The position numbers were made by a program, and so were the translations under genes. Below, piece after piece: positions 4,065 through 44,074 of a stretch of DNA of 44,074 nucleotides; position 1 is the stretch's first letter; the number at the start of each line of letters is the position of its first letter. The DNA lies in IMG/VR virus record IMGVR_UViG_3300009173_000025, positions 1 through 44,074 of that record; one strand, given 5' to 3'. The notes beneath the pieces are model-generated. The model saw only the letters and a program-made list of their open reading frames with translations. It ran no database searches and was not told the origin of the DNA. This DNA comes from a virus.

Positions 4065-4079
4065 TTCTTTTCCTTACCG

Positions 4080-23100: not shown

Positions 23101-23780
23101 GTGTGCTCATCAACATCAAGATTATAAGCATCAACTAACGCTGGCATATCTAAATAAGCCACCGCAAAACATGCCAAATGTTGTGGCTTCTCTGTTCGCA
23201 CTTTAAAGCTTGCTCTAAAATTAATATCATGTATTGTATTCCCGTCACTATCAGTATGTGATTTGTGTTGGGTTAAGTCTTTATTATCGCCAAGAACATC
23301 TTGGTTGATGGTTAGCACCTTTACTTGAAAATTATCCTTACTGTAAAACTCACGTTTAAGATCAGCCACGTCATTAATTTTAAAATCTTTCTTAAGAGTT
23401 TTTACAGATTTAGAATTAACATCCCAGTGCCCCCACTTATTAGCAAGAGCGATAGCTTGATTGTTTCTAGAAAACGCTTTAGTTACAAATGGATTTGTAG
23501 AAACAACCACCATCAATTTTATGTAATTAGTAAACTTGCCTGAATCACCAAACCAGCGACCGATCAAGCTAGTATCCAACTTTTCTTTTAAGCAAAGGTC
23601 GGCTGTGACAAGTAGACTGTTTGGGGTGTCTTTATCACGATTGGCTCGCTCACGTTGATGGTCGATATGAGGATCGTCGTCTTCTGGCGGCTGACCAGAA
23701 GATTCTAACGTGATCCCGTCGAAATACACAGACGGGAGCAAATCACCCAACAACTCTTCTTGACTAATTAAAGATGGCAT
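20109..23780 (-). CDS. Very large virion structural protein, unknown family
   Basis: A 1223-residue protein of no family I recognise. The first 300 residues look beta-rich. Residues about 300-410 are helical and strongly basic, with KFKRRRIKNVKTQNK near 395-410. The rest is mixed with few cysteines. The start MPSLISQEELLGDLLPSVYF may be an assembly peptide. The ATG overlaps the stop of the 399-residue gene (TAATG), and the downstream gene starts four bases after its stop. It is surrounded by tail genes and is late-type, so it is taken as a tail or baseplate component. Confidence 0.68.
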   Translation of the reverse strand: MPSLISQEELLGDLLPSVYFDGITLESSGQPPEDDDPHIDHQRERANRDKDTPNSLLVTADLCLKEKLDTSLIGRWFGDSGKFTNYIKLMVVVSTNPFVTKAFSRNNQAIALANKWGHWDVNSKSVKTLKKDFKINDVADLKREFYSKDNFQVKVLTINQDVLGDNKDLTQHKSHTDSDGNTIHDINFRASFKVRTEKPQHLACFAVAYLDMPALVDAYNLDVDEHTLKNQNGKCSAEVVIDNYNIVGNTNVFYTTAGVIWTGPIHKSGKTWRTGSNASEGGERLRHSTVPNTKIQDFRNIKEIKRLEINLAVIEQELFAAKNKFKGIKNDKMTPRRKNAYFSDCYLTRSDVGAARLCFAVDYEKLVREQSLYGKLLETKSKHTKRKLLTESKIRSLKFKRRRIKNVKTQNKLGAPIMGEVLFDSGEYPNMLSIGGEAASGRFSTSRKYNGGGWIKEVDVLLDSPQQSGRGLRFFTGEDWEMKSITDGDYQYGVEITVEDATVEYLDKVLSGLLHHRNRLNRYYHESTKLGMTKYIVELEDPHIDSTMERSAILKNSPGNYDPISNRFTQHFIDTQTKRWDGSFANGKSKIRYAPWVSPLINYMINLHMLTNSFESAAGWKILKAIYSYISPATGSPKGIMVFVKLMDDLIMKLSGLIGADVTFTTDRRERGYWRTHTHGPDRNLVKRSRTPTKTSTVEHWFSNNSFDSEVANNVGFDYLSSGLSTKSAASRGGLRQISGEAWKKRVEEEVLRYFKSPSVDINMRIGSNILTERDSLKRTNFTFFAPSFVYLDNNATSLVMDASSLTASVYDDDHLSVLESSILLYKSTTTPRFPVDARSAGCMPVMAHKFKENMQMFFADLNLTIEAPSQIESLPLTDRYFLNNQVFRSPNFEMCDLLGDIPDDTNLDPIVLVPKTNCDPDEEQACINPNTLFMSLMRPFSSTGATGAKSTNSPYEEPRHTAKLHYGELNLDTIEAYNLNVETNIVNLLVQDPSYINTIMVSCGYPASDTYSIQDAIHALPNHFKSLFLASVKSEAVSRNWFSLGYDPVKHIKTSSYFKFNFGLIRRTDVLTGYMNKKGADGIEIKEPQWEPLTMNRWQDAIGEILLCRHKPFSCPLLGVRGSVGMQLPIYDEYFFLRPPLRSKRKTPDSRILDSGDIFDSETSVEDNTVALDNATRDVPPSATATNIPGIEVLRFDCPPFGKDETLTKPWCVDPCILKTRR

Positions 23781-24979
23781 TAGCAGTCATCTCCCCCGTC
23801 ACCGTCAACTGTTGTGTCTGTTACCGACTTATCATACAAGTCGTTGCCCATACCTCCAGCCTGCGAGTTTGCGTTTGGAGAATCCGATAGTCCGGTGTTC
23901 TTGGCAAGGTCGCTGCCTCCGATTGCGTTTTCGGAAGTTGGTACATCGTCTTGATCGTTCATGGCACACTCCAATGCATCTTGTGTAAAAATTCCCCTCG
24001 GTCTGTTAACTGGTGCGTCGGCACACAGTACCATTTCGTCTATCTCAGAATCAACCCAAAGATTAAACCAATATTCAACATAACTAGGATCTATCTCTGG
24101 AAATTGTTCTGTAGTTCCTCCCTCTGGCTCGTCTAATAAAATATCATTCTCGTCAATCAGAACTGCATGTTTGACAAACGATAATTGGTGCAGCATCTCT
24201 CTTGTGTCCACCAAGCCTTTTAATTCTTTAGGAACTAAGTTGCCCTGTGCATCTACATCTTCAACCAAGAACACCTCAACATCAAAGTTTTCGTTAGTGA
24301 ATGGAACATTTAATTCCTCAGCCTCGACCAGCAGCCAATCATCTTTGATTTCAATATATGAACCATCATCATATAGCTGGACCGCTAAGCCAATAGCGCC
24401 AGCAGAGCCAGCAGAGCCTATACCACCCGCTTGCGGTCCACCGGGGGGGTCTAGCAAGTCCGTATCAGGTGGGTTGTCTAGCCAGCACTGTGTGGTGTAA
24501 AGGATTGAATTTACTGCCAACTGTGGAATGTGCATTGTTGGGTGTGCGCCCGTCAAGTGTGTTACATATTCACCTATCGTGCCACGGAGAAACGTCACAC
24601 TAAATGATGGAGCTTTATTGCCAATATAGTCAGAAGTTCCAAGCGGCGCAGAAAGTGCATAATGTTTATCTGGAGTTGATTGCACAGATGCATCTCTTAT
24701 ATTCCCACCTTCGTGAAGAACATGGTCAACCAGCTTTCGCACTTCTTTTTCTCTGCTGCTGAAAACATATTGAGTTTTTGTTCTCGGAGTTATATCTTCA
24801 ATCCTCGGCTGAGCATCATTTTGTTTTTCATTGTACCCTGCATACTCGGCATCATATAACACATCGTCATCGAAGAAAGAATAATAGGCTGGCTTAAATT
24901 TCCCCTTTGACAGTAAATGTTTGCCGTACTGCGTCAGTTGAATTTCGATCACATCTTCTTTTTTATTAAAAAACGTCAT
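23780..24979 (-). CDS. Virion structural protein with N-terminal module shared with the 306-residue protein
   Basis: A 399-residue acidic protein. The start MTFFNKKEDVIEIQLTQYGK, followed by HLLSKGKFKPAYYSFFDDDV, aligns with the start of the protein at 16456-17376. Both have M-x-F, a short acidic/hydrophobic strand, LT-x-x-G, L-x-KG, FK and a DD pair before a Tyr. The middle has a Gly/Ala/Pro-rich stretch (about 177-200). The C-terminus is Asp/Gly-rich and ends in Cys. It is coupled by TAATG to the giant gene upstream and to the 1223-residue gene downstream, so it is probably part of the same tail assembly. Confidence 0.72.
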   Translation of the reverse strand: MTFFNKKEDVIEIQLTQYGKHLLSKGKFKPAYYSFFDDDVLYDAEYAGYNEKQNDAQPRIEDITPRTKTQYVFSSREKEVRKLVDHVLHEGGNIRDASVQSTPDKHYALSAPLGTSDYIGNKAPSFSVTFLRGTIGEYVTHLTGAHPTMHIPQLAVNSILYTTQCWLDNPPDTDLLDPPGGPQAGGIGSAGSAGAIGLAVQLYDDGSYIEIKDDWLLVEAEELNVPFTNENFDVEVFLVEDVDAQGNLVPKELKGLVDTREMLHQLSFVKHAVLIDENDILLDEPEGGTTEQFPEIDPSYVEYWFNLWVDSEIDEMVLCADAPVNRPRGIFTQDALECAMNDQDDVPTSENAIGGSDLAKNTGLSDSPNANSQAGGMGNDLYDKSVTDTTVDGDGGDDC

Positions 24980-27900
24980 TAGTCTTCATCCTCTGGCACT
25001 GCTTTAAAAACATGATCCCAGTCCACCAGCGATCCAATTTTGGTTGTACCCTCTGCCTGTCCTGCTATGTGTGCGTCGGTCAATTGATCTTCGGTATCTC
25101 CCCGAATAGGCAATCTAGACTTTTTAATAATATCCTCATAGGCTGGTGTTGCAGACACTCCACCCTCTACTTGGACCAACTCAACCAAAGAGAAAAAGTC
25201 ATATGGCCAATTATAACTATACTCTGGCGCTGCTTCGCCAAATTCAAAGTCAAACTTAAATCTATCATCATCTCTTGAGTCTGCCGTGACAGAATAATAA
25301 TCTATATTAGCTTTTCTCTTAACCTTAAAAGTCAACCAACGAACGTTCGGTGGGAGCTTTTTGGCTTCATAAAATTCAACAGGATTCATCTCATGTGATA
25401 TGACTACTGAATCTTTCTCAGCGGTCACAGCGATCTTCGGCATAACCCCCTGCCAAATGTCAGCCAAATCCTGCTTGTCCAAAGTGTGATGAAATTCAAA
25501 AATGTACATAACAAACGGGAACTCACCAGACTTCAGCGGATAAGTAATGAAATCAAATTGAGGCGGCATGTTATATTTTTTTATGTTAGTAATCATTTCA
25601 GAAACAGACGTACTTGGAATATCCTTTTCTACGCTGTATTCACTAGATGCACCTTCGTGTGGAATTGCTGGCTTACCTGCTTCAATATTTTTCTTAGTGT
25701 AATTGAAGAGCTTCTTAGAAAGTTTGAAAAAGTTTCGTCCCATAACATTAACCGTTGACGCCATCGTTTTACTATTAATAGGCTCATCTACGAATGGAAT
25801 CATAACCACTGCTTCTGAAATTTCTTTTTCGTCAGCTAGCTCGCCAACTCTCTCCGTTGAGGTTTGGAACCCACACACGTCCACCAGAGAGCCAACAGTC
25901 TCGATACAGCGAACGTATTCCTCATCTGTTTCCTCTGGGTAGAAATCGTATGTTCCACCTTTTTTATTCCACACAATCTTACCATTTTCATCTACAAAAT
26001 GTATAGCTGCTGGGCTTTGTATATCATATGGAACGCCAACGCTACCCGGCTCAATAGCAATAAGCGGTTCTAAATCTGTTCCTGTTCGATCTGGATCTCT
26101 CTCCACCCACTTAATCTCTACCATCCCGGCATCGGCTTGAATTGTAACGCCTGTTGAATATTTTGCTTCTGCTTGCCAGCAAAAGTCTGATTCAAGTCTT
26201 GAGCGCCCATTAATATAGTGTGCAATCGCTTTAGCAATATTTATTGGCTGCACCATACCTTGACTCCAGCCAGCGTACTGACCCCAATTCCACTGGTGGT
26301 TGAAATTAGTATGAATTCCTTCTGCGCCCAGATATGCTTCTACATCATATTCTCCACGGTGTACGGGTCCAGTTCCAGTGGTGCTCATTGTTCCACCCGC
26401 TCCACCGCCATTGACGCTAGCAGGTGGCCAAACCATAAGAGCTTGAAAATTTTGTTGTGTATTAAATGTTACAACTTTGGGAGGACCAGCGTTAATCCCT
26501 AAAGTGCCAAACCAATTAAACGAAGTTGCAGCGGTGTTCTGATCAGTATAGGTCGGCTCAAAAACGTTTGCACCGTAATAGTCAATCTCGGTTTCGTTTC
26601 CTGAGTTGTTGCCCCAAAGATCAACAAAGCCGCCCCAGCCATTGAGATCGTAAACATTTGTTGGCTGACCGATTGTAATCTCTGTTTCGTCACCATGAGG
26701 ACTTGTCAAGGTAATCTTAGAATCGTGGAGTTTCCATGTTTGAACATCTGGAATAATAATCTTTGCTGTTGGAACTTCATGGTTCTTCGTAGAAAGCTCA
26801 CACTTAATCGGAGTCTTCATATCCCTCCGTCGTTTATAAGATTCCTCTAGGGTAATAAAAATACCCTCTTCTGCTTCGGGGATTTGACCATATCCAGACC
26901 ACATACCAATACCTCTGGCGTCGTGCGGCAAGCGTTCTGTGGTGCAGGCTTCTCCGCAAGGAGGAAGCTCTTGACTTCCCTCGAAAAACTCTTCACAATT
27001 CCAACCAACGTGAGGGGCGCAAGCTGAAACAGTACATTGATATAATGAAACAGCCAAACTTGCATTCAAAGAATACCCAAGGGCATTTAAAGCCTTTACT
27101 TGATCTGGTCTAAGGTCTGTTAAACCAGCATTCTGAACCGCAACAGAAAGCGTATCCATCGTCGCCTCAACCGGGTATTGGCGCATACGAAGATTATCCT
27201 CTGTTTTGAAGTTTAATGTAGGACACTCAAACCGTGGTGAAATAGTCCACACCGAGCTTTCGGAAGTATCACTATCTTCTGCCGTCCTAGCCAAATAAGG
27301 CTCTTTAATAGAGTCCAGAACATCAGGCAATTCATAAGGAGAGCGAACTACATCATATGTAATTTTCCTTTGTTTAGTTCGACCAAAGAAATTAATTGAA
27401 GCCTCCATAGGCATTCTTCCCTGATAGGCTGGAGTATTTCTATACTCAGTGTTCCTATAAACCAAGGAGGCAGCAGACAAGGATGGATCTGGCGGGACCA
27501 TCTTGTTTGCAAACAGTTCGTCCATCTCTTCGTTTACATATTGAATGGATGAATTCTTAAAAATATCATCGAGCGTTGGACGCCCATCTTCAGTAGGTTC
27601 AAAGATAACTCTTGCTTTAGCTCGACCATAAAAATATGGTGGAACATATGGTGCTTGGGCTGGGTCACCAATATAAAATTGATCCTCCATGTTCTCAAGA
27701 TATTTAACGGCTGGACCGAAATATCTCCCCTCTGTAGTAAACGGCTTACCAGATGCATCGAGGACTTGTGAACCAGCGCCATCAAGAACTTGACACGCCT
27801 CCCCGTCGTGGGGGCTAGAAGTCATCGCAAAATCTTCTGTAACATACAGTTGCACATCCATGTAATACATTGTTCCGCTAGTAACTGTTTTAAAATCTTT

Positions 27901-30900
27901 TTCTGGCTGCGAAGCAAATGTTGTGAACCCTTTTCTTTTCAAGAAGAAGTTTGGAACCTCTGCTAAGAAATTATGCATCGCCATTTCATAAAGAGGATTC
28001 TTTCGTCCAAGCCATTCAAAATACGGGTATCGCAAGTTTTCATCTGGTTCGCCAGCAATGCCTGAAATAGTGGAATTAGGTGGAGCATCATCCGGTAGGC
28101 TAAACATCGCCGTATCGAGTGTTGGCTCAAATCTCTCCGCATAATATGATGGAGCAAGGAGAAATATCTTAGAAAGCTCTTGACTGTTTTGTAACGGAAG
28201 AACCGAGTCGATAGAAACCAACCCCTCAAATGGAATTCTAAAGTTGGGCGCTTCTCCTAGAAACGCACCCTCACACCCAGCATCATTTACAAGTCTCAAC
28301 TCTACTTCGGGATTATCTGATCTTGAAGGAGCAACACTCATCGACGCCATTTCCCGCACTTCGTTTTTAATATCCTCCGGTGAAGCTCCATCGAATGCAC
28401 GTCCGAAGCCCTCAATAACTTGTCTTGGATCAACTTTGGCTGGGTCTAGGGCACCACTGGCAAAGCGGTCTATGAGAAGACCAGATAACTCCCTTTGTGC
28501 TTCTTCCGTTAGCTTTCCTTTATCTGCCACCTGTCCACGGGCTGCGAGAATTTTCATCATCTCGACTGTCGCTGCTGCGACTATATTGTTAACATGAGAC
28601 AGGTTAGCATCGGAGATGACACCCCTTACTGGTCCAGCAGTAGAAAGCTCGCCGCTCGCCACCTCGCTACAAGAAGGTAAGTCGTCATCGCAGTTTTCAG
28701 TGCAACACCATACAACCTCATAGTACCTGTCGAGAAAACGATCCCGCATATCATTAGAAGTGCCGTCATGCTCGCCTGCGTAACAAGCCCAATCCACCGC
28801 AATGCCAGACTTAATTGTATTATAAAGAATGCCCGGTGCGAAGAAAGGCTGCGTCATTGCTTGCAAAGTCCTAGCCCTTTCATAAGCCTGTTCGTCATTC
28901 TCTCCAACAACATATGGAGAAATAGAATCATAAAACAAGCTAGCTAGCTGGACCGTTCTCTGAGATGGATAAAATCCATTATAGGGAAGCAGCTTTTTGA
29001 TCGCATTTATTTTTAAGGTCAATCTGGGGTAAGCGTCGATTCCTAATTCTCTGTGATCTTCATACACTTTATCAATATGTTGAATAGCGTCGGTATGTCC
29101 ATAACATTTAAAGAAATCTTCTTTCCAAACAGTAGTCTCGCATAACTCCCGTTCCCAAACTGGAATGCCCATTTTCCACCAGCCACTCATCTTCGCACAA
29201 TTATCATATGGGCGATATATTTTTTTCTGGAGATAATTTGTTTTATCTATCTCGCTGATCGTCCGCAGGTTGAGGTAATGGACCCTCGCATCTGGCGGTC
29301 TGACAAAAAACTGATGGTCAAGCTCATCGTTGACGATACCATCGGGAACATCGTCGTCAACGATGGTTCTCCCAGTCGGAGTGACCATTTCAGTGGTTCC
29401 ACTTTCTGAGCAATTCATTTTTTTAGCCCATTCTGCATACACATCATTTAAGTTTTCGCACTGTTCTCCGTAATGATGTATGGCAAAGATAGACTCCACC
29501 GGAGTATCTGTTGAACCTGCTGGTAGGGCTGGGTTTATGATTGAGTTGAAAGCCGCCTTTCTTACACACTCTTCCAGTTCGGATAAGTGTGCCTCACTGT
29601 TTACATCAAAAGTTTCTTTCCCCGGAGTGTTGAAGGCGCAGCCAGTAGAGGTTGATCCCTCTTGAAGCGTCATTGAGGCGAAATTAATCATGTCCGTTAA
29701 ATTGGCTGGTTCTAGGTCTACAAAACCCCCAGTGTATAATGACACATCATTTACTTTACCTCGCAATACAGCATCAGGTTCAAAAGCACTCGTCTTCCTA
29801 ATATATACTGGTCCTGTCTGTGGATGGACAGGGTTCTGAACGTATCCTCTCAGGGTATGTCGGTCTTTCTCCATCGGATTTTCAAATTTAATACACTTGC
29901 CAAAAGTAAAGTTATTAATCAAATCAAAGGATTGAAACTCAAAATCTTCTGGCTGCTTGGTTATATCGTGTGGCACTTGATTGTGACCAGAAGAACCCTG
30001 CGCTGCCCACGACTTCACATTGTGAAACAATGCCCCGTTGTGCTTGATTGCGTTTGGAATCGACGTGCGAGCCGCTGGAAATGGGCTGTGAGTATCCTGT
30101 CCTAACATCTCATGATATGCGTGATGAGATGGAATTTGCTTTCCATTTACAAACAAGAAAGCTTTGTGGCTATTAATCCATGCGGGGTCGCCAGCATTGG
30201 TCGTGCTGACAGTTGGTCCTGATTTGCCCATTTTCTCATTTGAGCCTCCAATATAAACCATAACAATGTGCTGCCATGTCCCATGAAGAGAGCCGTCGTG
30301 TAATTCTATATCAAAGTGTAGTTTGTTCCCGCAGTCATCAACAAGCATAGGTCGCCCACTAAGTGCGTTTGGATTGCTGACAAGATCAATAAATTGATGG
30401 GAGTCGCCCTGTGCGGGGTTATCATAAAAATCTTTCAGATAAAACGACAATCTTTTATCCATACCGTATTTTGGAGTTGCTCCGTCTTGCTCGCCTTCTG
30501 GCTTATTCAAGGAGTCAGGTAGGTTGCGGTCATCGACTATATTTAACTGCCCTTGCTTGTTAGCACGGTTTTCCAGTTCCGAAAGTTCTGGTTGTTGTTC
30601 AAGGTCGGCGTCACCAATTAGACCCTCAATATCACGAATTGCTGCCATCGGCTTAAACAAATTTGTTAAGTCTTGTTCGGACGGTGGACCTTCATATGAA
30701 AAAGTAAAACCACCCATACTTTGGTTTTCTGCTTGCCTCCAGCCATCATGGTCAACGTTCACCCAAAATGAAAGCGTAAAACAAGACTCTCCTTTTGCTT
30801 CGTGATAAGCATTTCGGATTGCGCTGGTAATATCTGGTGGGGAAAGTTCGTACCCATCAAGATCAAGGCATTCGCCATAGTCCGTGTCCGTGTCTCCTGT

Positions 30901-33900
30901 GCCGTCAAAATTGCCTCGGATCTCCGCAAGGGACGGTGCCCCGCCAATAGGGATTCCCTCGCCGGGAATTTCTGGATAAGTATCAAACAACTTTACATAA
31001 CTGAAATAGCAATCTACATCGCCCTGTAAATTATTATATTGTAACCCAGTATCTCCAAGGGACACTTTCATAAACTCGCCTTCGCCACCCTGTCGTTGGT
31101 GTGGGGCGGTTGCTTCATGGTGGTCAAAGAATGAATAACTGTTCTTAAGTTCTTCTGTGTCTTCGCCATAAAACATTTTGGCGTCTTTAAGTTTTAAAAT
31201 CGTATTTAATTTTGTAATTGGCTGTGCCACTGCACATTTCCAATTAGTTGCAACTGCATCAAGGGGAACAGGCTGTTCTTGTAAACAGTTATCAAGAATA
31301 ATTGTGTTTGCCATTTCCCCATTATTGAATGACTCAAATCCTGCCGCCCAATTTATTTCATAGGTGTAGCCGGATACCAAATTTTCAAAATCATCCTGCA
31401 AGAAATTAATGCCGTCATATGAATGATAAGATTGATATTGAGTATAAGTCTCTCCACTTGTTTCGGGAGCTTCTGGCTGTTGACCGCCGATCCGTGTGAA
31501 CGTTCCAATTGTTTCAAACATTTTCTTATTTTCAGAACGAAAATCTCCACCCATCTCATTAACATAATATTTCATGTTTGAGGAAATTCTAAATTCTGGT
31601 AAGATTGAATAATTTTGTCCAATCAAACGAATGTCTTTATTATACTCTTCGTATGAATCATACCAAGGGGCTTTGCCACTTAGGGCTGCTGTGTTCCAAG
31701 CCCAGCCTTCTTCTGTCGCTTTGCAAGATTGTGGATTATGAATATACTGTGGAGTCGGTCGTGGTGCCATCCATTCTTGATATTCTTTTACAGGGCAACA
31801 GCAAGAATCTTTTGTATCGCTTTCACCTTCGACTGGCTGACCTGTTTCTGGGTCTAAGAGGGGCAAACACGGCGCAGGAATATCGTGCCACTTTCCGTTC
31901 TGTGGATCTTCAATCTGGTATTTATTACATTCTTGATCAATCAAAGATAAATCAAGACGAGTGTAAAATCCCAAACAAGTATCTGAATACCAATCTGGAG
32001 AATAGTGACCATTCCCTTCGTTAAAGTCTGGGTTTGTATTTGTGCCATCGTAAACATATCCCCTAAATTGAGCGAAGCCTGCCCAACCCAAATCTCCACG
32101 CATGACCCTAACGGACTTCGCTCGATTTAATAGAATCTTGGTTTTTACCCCTGCCATCTCCGGTGGGAGATTGGAGGGACAAAACTGAGCCAAATCTTCT
32201 CCGTTTCCGGCTGCGCCCAGACGAACACCAATATCTTCATCCCAATATTTGTGATAGTCTAACGCCCACACGCTGCTTCTTCTAACTGGATAATTAAAAC
32301 AATTAAGAGCAGTTGTGTTGTTTGTGTCAACTGCAAAGTTATAAGCCCACTCAGTTGGGTGAGTCACAGCACCACTCTTAGATTTAAGCTCTGTTCTTTT
32401 ACGGTCATTAGCATCAGTGTGCCAGAAATTTCTTATCTCTGAAACTCTTTTATCATATCCATTTACTCCATAGCCCGATACCTCTTTATAGTTAAGCCTT
32501 GAACGGATTTTAGCCAGTCCGACATTTCTATGTTTCGGGAAGATATATTCTTTGTATACCATTCCAAAGAACTTGGGAGAGGTCGAAGCCTCAGAATCCA
32601 TATATTGCTCAAGGAGGGTATCATACATTTGCTTATCACACTTTACAAGAGACAGCCTTTGTGTAAGAAACGGGTTCGCAAACATCTCAAGATTGTTGCT
32701 AAACGTATGTTTCAGCCTACCGCCAACACGACTGCCGGGGAAGCCCAGCCTGTGAGTCATTGGCATATTCCACGCCGCACACGGTTCAACATAATTTGTT
32801 ACCGAGTCTGATCTTCGTTCTCTGAAAACAAGTCTTCTTTCTTGTTCCGTTCCATCCTTCCTTGGATCAATTTTATAAACGAAATCCATTGCCCTTGTGT
32901 GGTCAAGCATAGAAATAATATTATTGTTTCTATGGAAACGAGTGATTGGATGTTCGTGTCCTCTAATTTGTTTCCATGATGGATGTTGATACGGACCATT
33001 TCTATGCAACATCAAATCATTAAAACTTAGAGATGGCACATATGCATCATTAAGTTGGTCCTCTATAAGATCGCAATTTAGAGCCGGTGAATAAACACCC
33101 CCATTTGAGTATGACACATTGTTAACACTCCCTGCTGTATATTGGCTGATCACATCAGCGTGAGGATCTGTTATATTAGGAACGATATTACCCTCATCAT
33201 CAAGAATGAAGTCTGGCAGGTTAACCAATTTATAGGTTGGTTCCCCGGCTGGGGACTCACTAACGTTTATCAACTGCTGTTTCGTGGGATGATAATATTG
33301 ATCGTACTTTTTCCAAGCGGCTGAGTTAGAGAGATTATCTCCGAGCATGTTAACCCCCGCCCAACTATATTCACAATATCCAAGTTCGGTGTTAGTTATA
33401 ACATTCTCATATGAATAGGGGTGGTGCTTTTCATCCCACCTTTTAAACACACGCATGAACGGAAAACCAGACTCAATAACCAGCTTACTGTCGTCCCACA
33501 AATTGTCGAGCAATGTGACGCCCACAGAAATAGAATACTGTGCCAGCGTATACTCTTGTACTGTGGAATCTAAAGATGAGCCACGGAGCGTAAAATGTCC
33601 GAGTGCCCAGTTGTCATGATTATTTTCAATATAGGAGCCATCAATAAGAGAAATCTTCCAATAAGGATCTTCCTTAATCGGTCCAGCCCTCTCTCCCTTT
33701 AGTGGGGGATCGGTATAGTCCGATGGAAAGGTTGTGTTATCAAATGGTTTTGCCTCTGGCATCAATCCGTATTCTGGATCATCTGGGTCCACAACAATTG
33801 TTGGATACTCCGCTCTCATGTTTGTAAACGGCTCAGCACGTCCCTGTGGACAATCCACAGGAAGAACTGAATCTTTAATCCAACTATATTGATAACCGCT

Positions 33901-36900
33901 TTGCGGGACTTGGTGCTGTTGCCACCAGTTATCAAAAGTCTCTTTGCATACATATTTGACTTTAATTGGGAACCAATATGGGAGACAACACGGATGACCG
34001 GGAGGATAAACAACATCAGGATCGCAATCATTGTCTCCACAATCACTACAGTCTTCATCATACTGTTCTGCCCAGTAGCCTTTTGCTGCCGATAGATCAA
34101 AATATTCTGTTGGTCGGAAAACGTATTTTACGTTCCTGTTCATCTTGTGATAGTTCGCCGCACAGAACACACCAGTGTCGCCGGGAGAACCGGGATTAGG
34201 ATCTAGCAACGGATTCCAATCAGCCCCCCATACGTCATCTGGATTTGTTTTAATGTCCCAACAATCCAACACTGGACGCTGGCGATACCAACTTCTATAC
34301 CCGCCCCACCTTGCATGGTGTGTCAACCACCTCTTAAGGTGTACACGAACATCAAGGTTCCTAAAGTTTAATTGATTGTGTGGAGAGAACTCTTCAGCTT
34401 CCACGTCCATCATACCTCTTGGAATTGTATGTGGTGAACCGGGTGCAGAAAATCGCTCTACAAATACATGTCTGTGTTTATATAAATGAGGATCGGCTCG
34501 CAGTGCTTTCCATTCTTCTACCCACTCTCGACCATATTGTTTATGTGTCTGTTCGCCGTCAGGGTGTAGTTGTCTAATCGGAAGCTCAAAATCATAATGT
34601 CCCTTAACCACCTTAGACTGTACAGACCACACATCGTGTGCTGGGATTCCTTCAATTTTAGTAAACCACGAATTGTTCTTTTTTCTGGAGACTGTCTGAG
34701 AGAATTCGTACAAGAACCTAAAGTTACCCAGAATCGGATTTTCCAACGTGGTCTTAACATTTCTAATGTTAACTGGTCGCTTTGCCTTTTCGTCTCTGTA
34801 ATATCTTGCCCGTGGGTTGTGTACACTAATTTGATCTGGACCGATGAAGCATCCAGTCTCCGCATCAAACAGCCACGCTTCTGGTCTGGTCGTCTGGTCG
34901 TCATCGCCATGATTAAATACAATGTGACGATACTGTAAGCCACCAACGTGGGTGTCCGTGAAGACGCCCTGCATCGGAGTTTCCATGTCGTCACCATAGG
35001 TGTCAGAGTGGACGTTGCCCCAATAGCGACCCGTGTGGGCGTCGTCATCTGCTACATCAGCATACAAGTCGAATGGAGATAACAATGTACCCTTCGCCTG
35101 ATTTTCTTCGGTGCCCTCACGATATTTTTTATTTGCCGCTGCGAAAGCAAGGCGTCGTTTCATGGTGTATTCGGATTCGTAATCATCCAAACAATCAAAC
35201 CCAGCAACTTGATTTGCGTCTTCAAGACAAACAGTGCCCTCTGAGGCAAAAGGAGTTTCGGTTCTTACATAATGAAGCTTCTTATTCTGTGGGTAATTTC
35301 TACCTCCGTGGATTGGTACATTTTCATCAACGGAAAACTTATAAGGCTTAGAAAGGTTTCTAAGAACAAAAGTAGAAGCCTGATAAGACTCCATATTATA
35401 ACTGTTTGTGCCGTGTGCAAAACGTCGATCTTCCCACGAACCAGAATCAATTGTTTGATAGGCGTGAAGAAGTTGATTTTTGTCTGCATCAATATCATCA
35501 TAACCAGTTGTGAGAAGTGGGTGGTTTCTCTCTGTGCGAAGATTCCACCATAGGCAATTCTTCTTTTCTTCTAAAGCTGCTCGCCCATGCTTCCAATTAT
35601 ACAACATTTCATTAATGCCGAGAATGGGAACCTCTGGAGGCTTGTCCTTCATTTCAAGAGTTGGGTATTTATTCCAATATTTATTTCTCTCTAATATGTG
35701 ACTCTCGATTAAAGTTCGTAGTTCGTCAGAGAAATTTGCCGAAGCGGGAATTAATTCTTGAAGCATCGCACTGATGGAAGAATCAATCCACTTATAAAAT
35801 TCCACATATCTTTCAAATCTCGGTACGTTATCAATCTTTGCAAAAAAGATGTGACGGAGTTTGCCGAGATCCTTATATTCCATTCGGTAGCGGTTGACGC
35901 CTTCGCCTACAAGATTATTAAACTCTACAATAGAGGCAAACATCTCTAACTGTTCTTCAGAGATGTTTTGATACATGCTCTTTTCAATCGCCCAGAAGTG
36001 ATTAATTGCTTTAGACTCTTTCGTGAACACGTCATCATCTTGGCGAAGAATATTAATTGTATCTGAGCTATGAATAATTTCTGGCAAGTGTTGCCTAGAG
36101 GTATAAACATAATCTCTGTCAATTACTTCTTTGTCGTTAGGGTAATAATAATCACCTCTTGCCGTGTGCTGATACTCGGTAACTTTTCCAAGCCAATCAT
36201 ATTTTCCACCGGGAAGAGTCTTGTCCAATGAGCCAGAAGAAACGTCTTCAACCCAGAACCCAGCATCAGACAAAATTGTATTAACTGTTGGGTCGCCGCC
36301 ATCGGCAACGGTCACTGTTGCAAAGTCCCAATGGAGAACTAGGGTTTCAATTTGAGGGACATGATAAGTATCAAGAACTCCTTCTGCAAAGTAAGCTGGC
36401 TTGTATGGTCGCTTGCGACCCCAATTTGTTGTGTCCCTAGCATGGTCTTGGATTGTGTCGCTGTCGAGGTAATCAGCCCAATATCTAACACTGCCGATCT
36501 TAATGTCGGTTTGCATTAGGGGTTCTGGGTTAGTATGGTCTGGACCGAAATCCCTGTAATGAGCGCCAACATAAATTCTTTTATATGCGTTGAGTGCGCT
36601 CTTTGCATCAGGGGCTGCAACAGCTTGCGTCAATAAAAACTCTTCTTGAACGTCGCCAAGAACAGTATTAACTCCATAAAACTCAAATGTATATTCTTCG
36701 TCAACTGGAGGATCACCTGCAAACTCACTACCCAAAACCAAATCTGTTAAGGGTCTTTTGTTTTGATAAATTCTAACCGCAAAATTCCATTGCTCGTTGT
36801 TATAAACTTCTGGATAGAAGCCAGTCTCTAATTCAAATCCGCCGAAGCCTTGTGCCCGTAACTTGAACTTGACGTTTTTTCGTTCCTCTCCGTCAATCTC

Positions 36901-39186
36901 TTCACGGATGGCAAAAACCTCAAAATCACAAGCCTTAGAAGGTTGCCAATTTAAAACATCTTCGTCGAGCGCATATGCCTCATGCATTCCAAAAATAGAG
37001 ATATTAGTAAAATTGTGCCTGTCATAGTTTGGATGGTCATTATCTAATACTCTTGGGAATACCGATTCTACCTCTAAGGTGAAAGGAATATAATCAAACT
37101 CGCTTGTGTCTGAACCTCTGATATAAGATGTGCTATTTGGATTATCTGGATTTCTTTTTTGGAATACAGATGAATCAAACCTGTCAACATTGTTGTAGTC
37201 TAAGTAATTCTTTCTCGCTGCGACGTGTCGATAAGTGTCATCAAACTTGAACACCACATCACTACCGTACAGGTTGATTTTAATTAATTCATCTCCAATG
37301 CCAAAACAGTGAAGTAAATTCCTAAATGATTTCTCTGTACCCTTCGCCTTATAAATGCCAGCAATGTTGTTATAAATGTTCTGGTATATCGTGTTCTTGA
37401 CATTATAAACCTTTTCTTCAAAGTTTTGTGTCTCATCACGATGTGCCATAGTCTCAAGGAGGGACGCATCAATAAAAATTTCGGGAGCCACGAAACCGAC
37501 AGATTCCAACAAGTGACTTGCGAAAGGAAGAGGCTTCTCGTCGTCTTGAACATATTTGGTATTCGTCAAACAAGGCAGTGCTTCAATTTGAAGATGTAAC
37601 GTATCAAAGTAGCTGGCGATAACCTGCGTCAGATCAAGTAAAGCTTCCCCGCCAAGCTCTTCATCTTCTGAAGTAATCCACTCAGGCATCGTATGATAGA
37701 TGGCTGCATTATTTGAAGTATCGTGTACAAACCCTTCGTCTTTTTTAGTTCTCAGCAGTTCAGCAACTTCTGGGTGTGCTGGATATAGAACAGGGTCTTT
37801 AAATTCTTTATGTTTGGTAGAAAAGCTTTCCATTGCTGATTCCAAACTACGGGTTCTTATATTATAATTTTGGATCGTGCCGTTTGAAATACGTCCAGAA
37901 TAATCCAACACATTTTTATCATACTGGCTGTCTTTGTTCTCTGCATCTACAATGCCCTCGTTGAACTTATAATAAACCCCAAGCATGACGTTTGCATCAT
38001 CAGTGTTTGTTCCACCGCCAACTTGTGTGAACCAGTGTCTTCCAACCTCTTCGGATGTACGAGCCTGTTTCCAATATCTAAACTCATCATAAGATGCCTG
38101 CACAGCAACGTTGCCCTCACCTGTTGGACCCCACTTTATTGCTAGAATTGAAGATACTGGTCTGTTTTGATATGCGCCGATAAACGCAGCCGAAGCCTTG
38201 TCGGGGTGCTGCTGAACAACATCAATTGCGGTTCCCGCAAGTCCGTCAGTTATTAATTTACCATTGAGATAAAACCTGACTCTTAGCTCACCACCCTCAT
38301 TGACACATGTATAGGCATAGTGATTCCACGCCCACGGATTGTAATCGTTCGGTACGTCGTTTAGGTTGCCAACTGGTTGCCGCTCAACGCCGTTTGTTCC
38401 GTGTGCGTATGTAACATGAAAATAATCACCCGTTGCAGCAAGCACTTGTTCGTCATGCTCAATTAAGATTCTTCCATATTCCGTGGAGCCGTGCGGTTCC
38501 TGATTCCACATATCGAAAAGACAAACAGTTCCCAACCTCTTGGGCTGATCCTTCCTCCACCAGAACTCGACCGTATTTCCAAGCTCTCCGCTCATATACA
38601 GGTTGGAATCACGCATTTCTTTTGGATTCCAAATATTTGCTTTTCCAAGCTTAAATGGAAATTCTTTGTTTACGTCGGCACCAGAGATGCCATGATCTAT
38701 TTGTTCTCTATTGCCAGTATCATTAATTAATGTACGGTGCGGTCCACCTTTTAGAGCAATATATTGAGGGTCGGTTAACGTCATATAGTTCCGACCATCG
38801 CCAAGAACATTAGCACTAGCGAAAGGGTGCAGCTTTATGTCATTTAATTTAACATGACCAACGAACCGTGGATACTGGTTTTCAAAAAACCAGTTGTCAA
38901 TGTAGGTGGCTCGACTATGCCAATCTTTTTTCTCAGCATAAGAGCCATCGTAGGGGTACGATTGATAGATTGTTTGAATTGCATCAGAATAATATTTAGA
39001 CGCAGAGCCGTATCTGGCTAAGCTCTTCGGGTCAGAAAAATCCACCCTTGGAATAAACCTGCGCTTTTCTACTACATGCTGTTCTGCGTAATCAACCGAC
39101 TCAATGTTTCTATCGACAGTCTCTTTAAGACTCTCACTGGAAACAATTTGATTAGATTTTTTACCAAATAAATCTTTTATGCTCAT
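24979..39186 (-). CDS. Giant tail/host-contact protein (4735 residues) with LamG-like regions
   Basis: A single open frame covers nearly a third of the window. The N-terminus (VDFSDPKSLARYGSASKYYS, 48-67) precedes a LamG/ConA-like region (about 200-385, NTVEFWWRKDQP ... LRVRFYLNGKLI). Next is a segment IYKAKGTEKSFRNLLHCFGI (about 608-630) resembling a recurring motif of phage tail proteins. Beyond it are cysteine clusters near 1709-1750, 2460, 3490-3508 and 4047-4083, a second LamG-like region (about 2795-3155, FTLSFWVNVDHDGW ... AFLFVNGKQIPSH) and a helical insertion (about 3522-3615). LamG folds bind glycans or proteins, so adsorption at the baseplate or tail tip is likely. No protease, intein or frameshift was seen. 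It sits between baseplate genes and other tail genes. Confidence 0.88.
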   Translation of the reverse strand: MSIKDLFGKKSNQIVSSESLKETVDRNIESVDYAEQHVVEKRRFIPRVDFSDPKSLARYGSASKYYSDAIQTIYQSYPYDGSYAEKKDWHSRATYIDNWFFENQYPRFVGHVKLNDIKLHPFASANVLGDGRNYMTLTDPQYIALKGGPHRTLINDTGNREQIDHGISGADVNKEFPFKLGKANIWNPKEMRDSNLYMSGELGNTVEFWWRKDQPKRLGTVCLFDMWNQEPHGSTEYGRILIEHDEQVLAATGDYFHVTYAHGTNGVERQPVGNLNDVPNDYNPWAWNHYAYTCVNEGGELRVRFYLNGKLITDGLAGTAIDVVQQHPDKASAAFIGAYQNRPVSSILAIKWGPTGEGNVAVQASYDEFRYWKQARTSEEVGRHWFTQVGGGTNTDDANVMLGVYYKFNEGIVDAENKDSQYDKNVLDYSGRISNGTIQNYNIRTRSLESAMESFSTKHKEFKDPVLYPAHPEVAELLRTKKDEGFVHDTSNNAAIYHTMPEWITSEDEELGGEALLDLTQVIASYFDTLHLQIEALPCLTNTKYVQDDEKPLPFASHLLESVGFVAPEIFIDASLLETMAHRDETQNFEEKVYNVKNTIYQNIYNNIAGIYKAKGTEKSFRNLLHCFGIGDELIKINLYGSDVVFKFDDTYRHVAARKNYLDYNNVDRFDSSVFQKRNPDNPNSTSYIRGSDTSEFDYIPFTLEVESVFPRVLDNDHPNYDRHNFTNISIFGMHEAYALDEDVLNWQPSKACDFEVFAIREEIDGEERKNVKFKLRAQGFGGFELETGFYPEVYNNEQWNFAVRIYQNKRPLTDLVLGSEFAGDPPVDEEYTFEFYGVNTVLGDVQEEFLLTQAVAAPDAKSALNAYKRIYVGAHYRDFGPDHTNPEPLMQTDIKIGSVRYWADYLDSDTIQDHARDTTNWGRKRPYKPAYFAEGVLDTYHVPQIETLVLHWDFATVTVADGGDPTVNTILSDAGFWVEDVSSGSLDKTLPGGKYDWLGKVTEYQHTARGDYYYPNDKEVIDRDYVYTSRQHLPEIIHSSDTINILRQDDDVFTKESKAINHFWAIEKSMYQNISEEQLEMFASIVEFNNLVGEGVNRYRMEYKDLGKLRHIFFAKIDNVPRFERYVEFYKWIDSSISAMLQELIPASANFSDELRTLIESHILERNKYWNKYPTLEMKDKPPEVPILGINEMLYNWKHGRAALEEKKNCLWWNLRTERNHPLLTTGYDDIDADKNQLLHAYQTIDSGSWEDRRFAHGTNSYNMESYQASTFVLRNLSKPYKFSVDENVPIHGGRNYPQNKKLHYVRTETPFASEGTVCLEDANQVAGFDCLDDYESEYTMKRRLAFAAANKKYREGTEENQAKGTLLSPFDLYADVADDDAHTGRYWGNVHSDTYGDDMETPMQGVFTDTHVGGLQYRHIVFNHGDDDQTTRPEAWLFDAETGCFIGPDQISVHNPRARYYRDEKAKRPVNIRNVKTTLENPILGNFRFLYEFSQTVSRKKNNSWFTKIEGIPAHDVWSVQSKVVKGHYDFELPIRQLHPDGEQTHKQYGREWVEEWKALRADPHLYKHRHVFVERFSAPGSPHTIPRGMMDVEAEEFSPHNQLNFRNLDVRVHLKRWLTHHARWGGYRSWYRQRPVLDCWDIKTNPDDVWGADWNPLLDPNPGSPGDTGVFCAANYHKMNRNVKYVFRPTEYFDLSAAKGYWAEQYDEDCSDCGDNDCDPDVVYPPGHPCCLPYWFPIKVKYVCKETFDNWWQQHQVPQSGYQYSWIKDSVLPVDCPQGRAEPFTNMRAEYPTIVVDPDDPEYGLMPEAKPFDNTTFPSDYTDPPLKGERAGPIKEDPYWKISLIDGSYIENNHDNWALGHFTLRGSSLDSTVQEYTLAQYSISVGVTLLDNLWDDSKLVIESGFPFMRVFKRWDEKHHPYSYENVITNTELGYCEYSWAGVNMLGDNLSNSAAWKKYDQYYHPTKQQLINVSESPAGEPTYKLVNLPDFILDDEGNIVPNITDPHADVISQYTAGSVNNVSYSNGGVYSPALNCDLIEDQLNDAYVPSLSFNDLMLHRNGPYQHPSWKQIRGHEHPITRFHRNNNIISMLDHTRAMDFVYKIDPRKDGTEQERRLVFRERRSDSVTNYVEPCAAWNMPMTHRLGFPGSRVGGRLKHTFSNNLEMFANPFLTQRLSLVKCDKQMYDTLLEQYMDSEASTSPKFFGMVYKEYIFPKHRNVGLAKIRSRLNYKEVSGYGVNGYDKRVSEIRNFWHTDANDRKRTELKSKSGAVTHPTEWAYNFAVDTNNTTALNCFNYPVRRSSVWALDYHKYWDEDIGVRLGAAGNGEDLAQFCPSNLPPEMAGVKTKILLNRAKSVRVMRGDLGWAGFAQFRGYVYDGTNTNPDFNEGNGHYSPDWYSDTCLGFYTRLDLSLIDQECNKYQIEDPQNGKWHDIPAPCLPLLDPETGQPVEGESDTKDSCCCPVKEYQEWMAPRPTPQYIHNPQSCKATEEGWAWNTAALSGKAPWYDSYEEYNKDIRLIGQNYSILPEFRISSNMKYYVNEMGGDFRSENKKMFETIGTFTRIGGQQPEAPETSGETYTQYQSYHSYDGINFLQDDFENLVSGYTYEINWAAGFESFNNGEMANTIILDNCLQEQPVPLDAVATNWKCAVAQPITKLNTILKLKDAKMFYGEDTEELKNSYSFFDHHEATAPHQRQGGEGEFMKVSLGDTGLQYNNLQGDVDCYFSYVKLFDTYPEIPGEGIPIGGAPSLAEIRGNFDGTGDTDTDYGECLDLDGYELSPPDITSAIRNAYHEAKGESCFTLSFWVNVDHDGWRQAENQSMGGFTFSYEGPPSEQDLTNLFKPMAAIRDIEGLIGDADLEQQPELSELENRANKQGQLNIVDDRNLPDSLNKPEGEQDGATPKYGMDKRLSFYLKDFYDNPAQGDSHQFIDLVSNPNALSGRPMLVDDCGNKLHFDIELHDGSLHGTWQHIVMVYIGGSNEKMGKSGPTVSTTNAGDPAWINSHKAFLFVNGKQIPSHHAYHEMLGQDTHSPFPAARTSIPNAIKHNGALFHNVKSWAAQGSSGHNQVPHDITKQPEDFEFQSFDLINNFTFGKCIKFENPMEKDRHTLRGYVQNPVHPQTGPVYIRKTSAFEPDAVLRGKVNDVSLYTGGFVDLEPANLTDMINFASMTLQEGSTSTGCAFNTPGKETFDVNSEAHLSELEECVRKAAFNSIINPALPAGSTDTPVESIFAIHHYGEQCENLNDVYAEWAKKMNCSESGTTEMVTPTGRTIVDDDVPDGIVNDELDHQFFVRPPDARVHYLNLRTISEIDKTNYLQKKIYRPYDNCAKMSGWWKMGIPVWERELCETTVWKEDFFKCYGHTDAIQHIDKVYEDHRELGIDAYPRLTLKINAIKKLLPYNGFYPSQRTVQLASLFYDSISPYVVGENDEQAYERARTLQAMTQPFFAPGILYNTIKSGIAVDWACYAGEHDGTSNDMRDRFLDRYYEVVWCCTENCDDDLPSCSEVASGELSTAGPVRGVISDANLSHVNNIVAAATVEMMKILAARGQVADKGKLTEEAQRELSGLLIDRFASGALDPAKVDPRQVIEGFGRAFDGASPEDIKNEVREMASMSVAPSRSDNPEVELRLVNDAGCEGAFLGEAPNFRIPFEGLVSIDSVLPLQNSQELSKIFLLAPSYYAERFEPTLDTAMFSLPDDAPPNSTISGIAGEPDENLRYPYFEWLGRKNPLYEMAMHNFLAEVPNFFLKRKGFTTFASQPEKDFKTVTSGTMYYMDVQLYVTEDFAMTSSPHDGEACQVLDGAGSQVLDASGKPFTTEGRYFGPAVKYLENMEDQFYIGDPAQAPYVPPYFYGRAKARVIFEPTEDGRPTLDDIFKNSSIQYVNEEMDELFANKMVPPDPSLSAASLVYRNTEYRNTPAYQGRMPMEASINFFGRTKQRKITYDVVRSPYELPDVLDSIKEPYLARTAEDSDTSESSVWTISPRFECPTLNFKTEDNLRMRQYPVEATMDTLSVAVQNAGLTDLRPDQVKALNALGYSLNASLAVSLYQCTVSACAPHVGWNCEEFFEGSQELPPCGEACTTERLPHDARGIGMWSGYGQIPEAEEGIFITLEESYKRRRDMKTPIKCELSTKNHEVPTAKIIIPDVQTWKLHDSKITLTSPHGDETEITIGQPTNVYDLNGWGGFVDLWGNNSGNETEIDYYGANVFEPTYTDQNTAATSFNWFGTLGINAGPPKVVTFNTQQNFQALMVWPPASVNGGGAGGTMSTTGTGPVHRGEYDVEAYLGAEGIHTNFNHQWNWGQYAGWSQGMVQPINIAKAIAHYINGRSRLESDFCWQAEAKYSTGVTIQADAGMVEIKWVERDPDRTGTDLEPLIAIEPGSVGVPYDIQSPAAIHFVDENGKIVWNKKGGTYDFYPEETDEEYVRCIETVGSLVDVCGFQTSTERVGELADEKEISEAVVMIPFVDEPINSKTMASTVNVMGRNFFKLSKKLFNYTKKNIEAGKPAIPHEGASSEYSVEKDIPSTSVSEMITNIKKYNMPPQFDFITYPLKSGEFPFVMYIFEFHHTLDKQDLADIWQGVMPKIAVTAEKDSVVISHEMNPVEFYEAKKLPPNVRWLTFKVKRKANIDYYSVTADSRDDDRFKFDFEFGEAAPEYSYNWPYDFFSLVELVQVEGGVSATPAYEDIIKKSRLPIRGDTEDQLTDAHIAGQAEGTTKIGSLVDWDHVFKAVPEDED

Positions 39187-39189
39187 GTG

Positions 39190-40656
39190 TTATTCTACCC
39201 TAAACTTAAAAGCTTCGGGCTGATAACGGATTTCACCATTGACATTATATGCCAAATTGATTCGATACATATAGCCGGGTTCACACAATTCCATATCAAA
39301 GTCAAAATAATTTCCTTGAGAATCGTATGAAATCTTGGTATGTTCTGTACCACCAATTCCATATTCTACAACGGGAAGCCCATCAGTCACCCTAATCACC
39401 TCATAGTAAGCCGCTTCAACCACTTCTGATTCAATCTCCTTACTCGCTACTGTATAAATAGTTGGACTCCAATCTTTTAAACGGGTGTAAATCCGCAATC
39501 TTGGAACTTCTTCCGTAGAATACTTTTGTTTTAAGTTTATAATCGTAGTAACGTAAACCGGGTTTGCTTCGGAAGTCAAATCAGCCGTGCGATGTTTAAT
39601 ATTTAACGACTCTGAAAGATAAACCGTTGGAGTTTGATCTTGCCACACAGCTTGAACATTGTCGAGGTCTGTATCTAAAACTACAGTAGCCGCATAGACT
39701 CCCGCTACTGCATTGTCCATTGCAAGGCTCGTTACAACAATTTCATTTGTTAGAGCCACAGCGTCTTCTTCTGTGGGATAAAACTTTATATCCATCGGGG
39801 CAGCCAATGCTGGTATGTTTGTTAACACCCCATTAACATGATTTCTAATTGAAATAAGGTTCTCGTTATCAACAGCGGCACGAAGATTACTCTCTGCATA
39901 AAAATTATTACGGTCGTCGCCAGCATCAGTTGAATCCCACCTAGCCTCTATCATAGGTCGTCGGTAGAAATATTCGCTTCCTCTCGCAAAAAACTTTTTC
40001 GTATAGTATGAGCGACCATCAGTCCCGTCTTCATGGTCGTTTAATAACTTCAATACTATGCCAAAATTATTTACACTACCGTCCAGCCAATCGTCAACCA
40101 AGCTTGTAATATCTAGCTCAACATCTTCTGTGCCATCTTCATCAAACGTAGCCGTGAAAGCTGTGCCAGCATCAAAGTCGCCACCGGGAGTTGTCCAGTC
40201 CACAGCATTGGCTGCAACATTCCAGCTTGCGCCGCTGCCGCCGAACTGATTGCTTGGGGCAACACCACTAGCTCCATCGTCTTTATATTCTTCCATATCT
40301 AGTCCATGACCCTCATCCCACGCTGTCGTCACTGGATGTACCACCATGCTATAATTTGTAGGCAATGTCCACGGATGTGGAGAGTTAAAAATTCTTAAAA
40401 TATAAGAAACGTTTCCTCCCGCTGTGTTATCAGGCACTTCGCCTGCGGCGATTGCAGCAGCAATGTCTGCAACTGGGAAATTAACTAAAGTGCGACACAT
40501 CTCTACTGAGGTTGCATCCACCTGTGCATAAATAGAAAACACTTCTATGGAATCTGCCAAGCCCATATTAGAACCCGTAGCCGGGGTTCTCAAATTTTCA
40601 AGATAGGCGTTCGTAATTGTAGTATCAGCATCGGCTGTAAATCTTTTAATTGACAT
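39190..40656 (-). CDS. Baseplate-linked protein with DNRLRE-like beta domain
   Basis: A 488-residue protein. Residues about 1-240 match the pattern of DNRLRE domains: TTITNAY near the start, VTTAWDEGHG (110-118), a WTTPGGDFD turn (154-162) and the hallmark LDITSLVDDWLDGSVNNFGI (181-200). In bacteria this fold occurs on secreted, surface-attached proteins. The second half looks like stacked beta or Ig-like strands with YSTEEVPRLRIYTRLKDWSP. It is coupled by TAATG to the gp6-like wedge gene and precedes the giant gene by three bases. A baseplate spike, fibre attachment or host-surface protein is the likely role. No catalytic motif is seen. Confidence 0.72.
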   Translation of the reverse strand: MSIKRFTADADTTITNAYLENLRTPATGSNMGLADSIEVFSIYAQVDATSVEMCRTLVNFPVADIAAAIAAGEVPDNTAGGNVSYILRIFNSPHPWTLPTNYSMVVHPVTTAWDEGHGLDMEEYKDDGASGVAPSNQFGGSGASWNVAANAVDWTTPGGDFDAGTAFTATFDEDGTEDVELDITSLVDDWLDGSVNNFGIVLKLLNDHEDGTDGRSYYTKKFFARGSEYFYRRPMIEARWDSTDAGDDRNNFYAESNLRAAVDNENLISIRNHVNGVLTNIPALAAPMDIKFYPTEEDAVALTNEIVVTSLAMDNAVAGVYAATVVLDTDLDNVQAVWQDQTPTVYLSESLNIKHRTADLTSEANPVYVTTIINLKQKYSTEEVPRLRIYTRLKDWSPTIYTVASKEIESEVVEAAYYEVIRVTDGLPVVEYGIGGTEHTKISYDSQGNYFDFDMELCEPGYMYRINLAYNVNGEIRYQPEAFKFRVE

Positions 40657-42479: not shown

Positions 42480-42911
42480 TTATGCACAATCTACATCTCT
42501 AATTAGTGCTGACGAGTTTAAATCTACATCCAGAATGCCCGTTTGATCGAGCGGGATAATACGATAGCTTATTACCATGTGTAAATAATTGTCTCCAAGT
42601 TCAGGGTTTGTTTCCGATGTATAAAAATCAACCCCCTCTAAATCAAGAAAGGGCAAGTACCGCTTAACCTGTTCATATATTTTGGCTGACAACGCTCCAT
42701 GCACGGATGCAATATTCATTTCAAATAAGTACCGCTTTAGACCTACGCCAAATAAGGGGTCCATCATTCTCTCGCCGGGAACAGTTAAAATTAACATTTT
42801 AAGGTTCTGGCTTACCATTTCCTTATATGTCTTGTTTAATGCATAGCCATCTTGTTCATCTAAAGCTAACGGTAGCTTCGGTGATAAGCCTCTTATTCTT
42901 GATCTCGCCAT
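42480..42911 (-). CDS. 25: Baseplate wedge protein, T4 gp25-like
   Basis: A 143-residue protein of the gp25/GpW family, which clamps the sheath-initiating end of the baseplate wedge. The family signature LILTVPGERMMDPLFGVGL lies at residues 40-58 and is followed by helices and a strand region ending DQTGILDVDLN. Despite the family's historic 'lysozyme' label, gp25 is structural. It is followed after 15 bp by the gp6-like wedge gene, and the two should be co-translated. GGGAG lies about 11 bases before the ATG. Confidence 0.93.
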   Translation of the reverse strand: MARSRIRGLSPKLPLALDEQDGYALNKTYKEMVSQNLKMLILTVPGERMMDPLFGVGLKRYLFEMNIASVHGALSAKIYEQVKRYLPFLDLEGVDFYTSETNPELGDNYLHMVISYRIIPLDQTGILDVDLNSSALIRDVDCA

Positions 42912-44066: not shown

Positions 44067-44074
44067 TCATGCAA

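Follow-up and report, generated by a model that had tools for sequence, protein, structure and literature searches.

TssF and TssG resemble gp6 and gp7 of phage T4 and gpJ and gpI of phage P2, and the receptor-binding-protein-like TssK is recruited by loops of TssG (PMC6300606). The T4 gp7 ortholog in XM1, gp17, has just 242 aa (PMC10457771). P2 gpI (PF09684) has 176 aa, T4 gp7 has 1032 aa, and a far larger protein, Syn1_094, is encoded directly after gp6 in the T4-like Prochlorococcus phage Syn1 (Kyanoviridae), where the 3274-aa product is a virion structural protein recorded as T4-LIKE GC 826. Here, we describe a gene for 4735 aa in a 44-kb virus fragment from IMG/VR (44,074 nucleotides, hereafter the window). 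Its product shares with the gpI/gp7/TssG class the position after gp6/gpJ, and it has a K-G-T motif with flanking helices that resembles that of P2 gpI. On balance, we favour the reading that it is a baseplate protein of a T4-like contractile-tail phage, placed at the gp7/gpI position and carrying built-in host-binding domains. We found no description of its family in the literature.

Results

The giant gene lies in a gp25-gp6 cluster, downstream of the gp6/gpJ homologue and separated from it by a single gene, as follows.

42480..42911, minus strand: gp25-like baseplate wedge protein (PHROG E 2e-13)
40656..42464, minus strand: gp6-like baseplate wedge protein, 602 aa (PHROG baseplate wedge E 1.3e-19)
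39190..40656, minus strand: 488-aa protein between gp6 and the giant gene (gene order; weak Pfam match)
24979..39186, minus strand: giant ORF, 4735 aa, one coding frame (ORF list and translation)
23780..24979, minus strand: next gene, 399 aa, its start overlapping the stop of the giant gene (ORF list)

The gp6-like protein matches proteins annotated as baseplate wedge at 29%, and the order gp25-gp6-X-giant is common to the window and other contigs, with an ORF of 311-385 aa in the relatives at the position of the 399-aa gene. The window also encodes a T4-type portal and terminase, a fused SbcD-SbcC, a primase and RuvC-like genes. In the 1050-aa ORF at 9016-12168 (minus strand), residues 1-337 match SbcD and residues 340-1049 match SbcC, and the functions of T4 gp47 and gp46 thus appear to be fused in a single gene. 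The neighbouring ORFs at 13641-15032 and 15057-16442 (minus strand; 463 and 461 aa) appear to be paralogues, with C-terminal ends that resemble each other. Upstream of gp25, a 310-aa ORF (42933-44074, minus strand) may continue as a longer frame beyond the contig end; it is open in L001, and relatives have an ORF of about 2150-2360 aa at this place, so that the window probably contains just the C-terminal part of another giant gene.

The earlier note had described one uninterrupted frame of about 4700 residues, and the 14.2-kb frame of 4735 codons at 24979..39186 on the minus strand matches this exactly. From base composition, the log10 probability that such a frame is free of stops by chance is about -132, and the alternative frames contain 174 and 487 stops. 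The gene starts 3 bases past the stop of its 488-aa neighbour, and at its other end the stop overlaps the start of the following gene in a TAATG. Since homologues of 2747-4147 aa with identical gene order occur on independent contigs, mis-assembly is unlikely. That several genes were fused by an assembly or frame artefact could be argued from the 23 relatives in which the chain is two ORFs, but the one-ORF state occurs in 104 contigs, the codon-position GC is uniform over the entire giant frame, and the split chains have their own start signals, so that both states look genuine; we regard such an artefact as extremely improbable. The giant ORF is a genuine phage gene.

Profile comparison with the relatives divided the protein into a scaffold (residues 1-1245) and an extension (residues 1390-4700) with five further conserved blocks. 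The map, all on the minus strand, is as follows.

38857..39186, minus strand: N-terminal conserved block, residues 1-110 (MSIKDLFGKK...), a profile block in every relative with an intact N terminus
37987..38619, minus strand: LamG/pentraxin-like domain 1 (LamG1), residues 190-400 (profile and model matches)
37027..37749, minus strand: wedge-like block with the KGT motif, residues 480-720 (homologous in immuto, Mel-JY01 and the 484-kb phage)
37318..37350, minus strand: K-A-K-G-T-E-K-S-F-R-N motif, residues 613-623 (conservation; in register with P2 gpI)
36397..37119, minus strand: second beta-sandwich, LamG-like in the model, residues 690-930 (AlphaFold model; weak profile evidence)
35452..36189, minus strand: conserved block at the end of the scaffold core, residues 1000-1245 (present in immuto, Mel-JY01 and huge-phage proteins)
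34297..35019, minus strand: extension block, residues 1390-1630 (profile block)
33946..34050, minus strand: cysteine cluster 1, residues 1713-1747, inside an expanded linker (Cys count)
32257..33045, minus strand: extension block, residues 2048-2310 (profile block)
29200..32256, minus strand: expanded linker, residues 2311-3329, with cysteine cluster 2 and a weak LamG candidate (linker comparison)
31723..31869, minus strand: cysteine cluster 2, residues 2440-2488 (Cys count)
29647..30849, minus strand: weak third LamG candidate, residues 2780-3180 (partial Pfam match)
28756..29199, minus strand: extension block, residues 3330-3477 (profile block)
28669..28707, minus strand: cysteine cluster 3, residues 3494-3506 (Cys count)
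27187..28014, minus strand: extension block, residues 3725-4000 (profile block)
26944..27036, minus strand: cysteine cluster 4, residues 4051-4081 (Cys count)
25087..25989, minus strand: C-terminal conserved block, residues 4400-4700 (profile block)

The order of the eight conserved blocks does not vary among the relatives examined, some of which are cut by contig ends, while 3 of 80 are without detectable later blocks. The suggestion of a single modular chain is supported, as a tail or baseplate protein. With the core profile (the first 1245 residues), at least 528 relatives were found in IMG/VR, plus two MAG contigs, and the extension profile detected at least 590 IMG/VR contigs. The extension had no match in 50,697 GenBank phage records, and tblastn searches of GenBank phages (E 0.001-0.01) with the N-terminal 1402 aa, the C-terminal 1406 aa and the extension of a relative returned nothing. 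The family is widespread in uncultivated aquatic viruses, largely undescribed and unnamed in protein family databases. Separately, a record of a candidate division WOR-3 chromosome (CP070664.1, 578492-602142; L109) encodes a 1562-aa core relative without the later extension blocks; it is close to the viral contig L055 and is either a prophage remnant or mis-binned sequence.

Both ends of the chain are visible in 127 contigs. The chain is one ORF in 104 of these, with 83 distinct lengths between 2747 and 4147 aa (median 3175), all exceeded by the 4735 aa of the window protein, which is the longest complete family member measured; two more relatives, cut by locus ends, have more than 4500 aa. 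Compared with the 104 relatives, the scaffold spacings of the window protein are ordinary, and its great length arises because four inter-block linkers are expanded: 1630-2048 (418 aa against a median of 199), 2310-3330 (1020 against 156), 3477-3725 (248 against 77) and 4000-4400 (400 against 36). The corresponding linkers of relatives contain seven FG-GAP repeats (E 2.7e-40), two LamG domains (3.6e-29) and reelin subrepeats (1.6e-10). Counting four or more Cys in 40 aa as a cluster, we found exactly the four clusters that had been claimed, all of them inside the four expanded, non-conserved linkers. Cysteine makes up 1.31% of the window protein, above every measured relative (median 0.35%, maximum 0.84%), and several neighbouring window proteins are as rich in it. 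The location in non-conserved linkers and the low median of the relatives rule out the clusters as a hallmark of the family.

In the other 23 of the 127 contigs, the chain is two ORFs, cut after block 1245, 1630 or 2310, and at the split junctions examined a stop ends the first ORF and a new start comes after it, in many cases together with a ribosome-binding sequence. Placing the one-ORF and two-ORF states on a maximum-likelihood tree takes 7 changes, of which supported branches force at least 5; shuffling gave a mean of 17. Rooting on the immuto, Mel-JY01 and huge-phage proteins gave long branches and did not fix the root, so that fusion and fission could not be distinguished. The proposal that the gene replaces several separate tail genes holds insofar as one chain corresponds to two genes in these 23 contigs, but nothing shows that T4 gp8-gp12 are replaced. 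In five contigs (L079, L089, L102, L100 and L094), the gap between the split genes contains a TATAATCTAATTATA-like sequence, which is possibly a late promoter.

As for the predicted folds, residues 190-400 are well supported as a LamG domain (Laminin_G_3/pentraxin fold, PF13385). Of 8 relatives, 6 gave a Laminin_G_3 match at this region, the strongest at E 1.3e-9, and the region gave a profile match to Pfam-verified LamG at E 1.2e-9, while the Pfam score of the window protein itself is under the cut-off (E 0.0032). In the window protein this fold forms a single domain within a chain that is otherwise wedge-like. We modelled residues 1-1195 with AlphaFold from 65 sequences (mean pLDDT 80). The model contains the LamG-like folds that the earlier note had expected of structure prediction, and its Foldseek matches in the PDB, dominated by the LamG domains, are pentraxins and other ConA-like proteins (E 2e-6). 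The same model had whole-core matches in BFVD, among proteins of uncultured marine viruses, seven of them at TM 0.59-0.86; A0A516MAV8, A0A1B1IUQ9, A0A0F7L9Z0 and others, all uncharacterised or unnamed, match the fold of the whole core. The earlier note had proposed two LamG/ConA-like regions. Besides residues 190-400, residues 690-930 are a beta-sandwich in the model with a weak profile match to LamG (hhalign 0.024 against 0.17-0.55 for shuffles) and no Pfam match. A third region, 2780-3180, is a weak candidate from sequence only, with a partial Pfam Laminin_G_3 match (E 0.0043), an hhalign value of 0.015 and no match in a PDB sequence search. A GH16-type glucanase was rejected, as the only match resembling the catalytic E-x-D-x-E motif is at residue 763, in a charged stretch outside LamG1.

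For the extension, we modelled the compact relative L047 over its last 1200 residues (pLDDT 74, pTM 0.80). This confident model, which represents the conserved blocks and not the linkers of the window protein, had no PDB match below E 0.3. PDB sequence searches with the whole protein, the core profile and the sub-blocks gave nothing credible, and a match to IcmE/DotG proved to be a repeat artefact. Pfam and PHROGs, run on the whole window protein and its C-terminal pieces, gave no match above curated cut-offs.

The evidence for wedge identity centres on the K-G-T segment. The GTEK-type motif pointed out earlier is present at residues 613-619, and among 65 relatives K615 and G616 are invariant and T617 is conserved in at least 90%. 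In an hhalign comparison of the core with P2 gpI, the K-G-T segments fell in register; the value was 0.0034, whereas shuffles gave 0.19-0.62 and the reverse gave 0.33, and the probability value was low (9.6%). P2 gpI also matches the proteins in the same slot of Syn1 (0.0014) and Pelagibacter phage HTVC008M (0.0009). With these two proteins, too, the window segment aligns in register, and better than shuffled or reversed controls do. In the 484-kb genome LR756508 the sole match of PF09684 is the homologue of the giant, at the same motif (E 0.024). As a separate observation, the HTVC008M protein I899_gp055 (L111, 33435-36485), encoded after gp6, matches Baseplate_wedge at E 8e-13 and is labelled 'head closure Hc2', an annotation that is probably wrong.

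Comparison with other phages placed the core in the same slot. Three proteins encoded after gp6, immuto35A_161 of Flavobacterium phage immuto (1265 aa), WWT39511 of Microcystis phage Mel-JY01 (1336 aa) and an ORF of LR756508.1 (1404 aa), are homologous to the giant core (E 1e-5 to 1e-19). Blocks 480-720 and 1000-1245 occur in them in the window order, spaced by about 70 aa in immuto and about 350-410 aa in Mel-JY01 and LR756508, and unlike the window protein they are without the extension. Syn1_094 likewise has a K-G-T segment matching gpI, but only this short segment aligns in register with the window protein; there is no detectable homology along the chain, and its domains are different (YHYH and a partial Baseplate_wedge). 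The earlier remark that nothing of such size exists in T4 is correct for T4 itself, but the T4-like cyanophage Syn1 has its 3274-aa protein in the same slot, and giant proteins after gp6 are thus known as such in cyanophages.

We infer from the motif and the gene position both the equivalence to gp7/gpI and the location of the giant protein in the virion, and, judging from sequence, it likely functions like a gp7-class wedge protein. Alternatively, it may be a peripheral tail-fibre or skirt protein on the baseplate, the gp7/gpI role belonging to the 488-aa neighbour or to an unseen gene. Indeed, neither PF09684 nor PF23786 (Pfam Baseplate_wedge) matches the window or its close kin, the latter matching the HTVC008M and Syn1 proteins and not the window family; the core profile had no significant match to T4 gp7 or to PDB chains, and neither curated models nor profile comparison supported gp7 family membership or direct homology to T4 gp7. 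The non-wedge extension also makes up most of the length, and fibres typically carry lectin and adhesion domains. However, the in-register K-G-T segment, the position after gp6 and the extension-free core that fills this slot in three further phages argue for a wedge protein, and the 488-aa protein, which keeps its place between gp6 and the giant gene in relatives, matches only a disaggregatase-related repeat family, weakly and under the cut-off (Pfam E 0.0036). A fibre or skirt protein thus seems rather unlikely, though it retains some weight.

Discussion

In the wedge reading that we prefer, residues 1 to about 1245 would form a wedge scaffold at the place of T4 gp7, P2 gpI or TssG, its gpI-like K-G-T segment packing with a gp6-like dimer and a LamG/pentraxin lectin domain interrupting it. 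Position and motif suggest that the core joins the wedge beside gp6. The inter-block linkers may serve as tolerant insertion sites for adhesion-type domains and cysteine-rich loops, and LamG1 and the linker domains, by their type and variability, would project outward from the rim and contact host surface glycans. By analogy with other contractile tails, host contact would then move the wedge and trigger contraction.

LamG folds may be purely structural. LamG1 and the linker domains might accordingly pack at the rim or be braced by disulfides and not bind receptors, as the kept position of LamG1 across the close family and the cysteine-rich linkers of the window protein would allow. Phage Milano, for example, has an extensive disulfide network throughout its baseplate (PMC10811340). 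The cysteine clusters, however, are non-conserved, and the linker inserts of relatives differ in length and in the kind of domain, which would be expected of parts that face the host; we consider a purely structural role unlikely. LamG1 and the linkers are conserved at 30-42%, compared with 50-65% for the scaffold. As for the proposed glycan-binding device, surface binding is plausible in view of the LamG, FG-GAP and reelin-like inserts in relatives, and binding of host-surface glycans by LamG1 and the linker domains is probable as a prediction from domain type.

More tentatively, the extension (about 1600-3500 aa) could represent a structurally new class among baseplate proteins, widespread in T4-like viruses of aquatic, uncultivated origin, in which wedge scaffold and receptor-binding apparatus are united in one chain that is repeatedly cut or joined at three fixed joints and swaps adhesion domains in its linkers, a proposal that we hold at less than even confidence. 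The extension occurs in hundreds of IMG/VR contigs, yet in none of the GenBank phages, its blocks have no Pfam or PHROG match in the window protein, and it matched no solved fold. Repeatedly split and joined, this chain offers a natural test of which joints of a baseplate protein must be covalent. Furthermore, the fixed order of eight blocks with exchangeable linkers could allow host-range determinants to be predicted from sequence in unculturable viruses.
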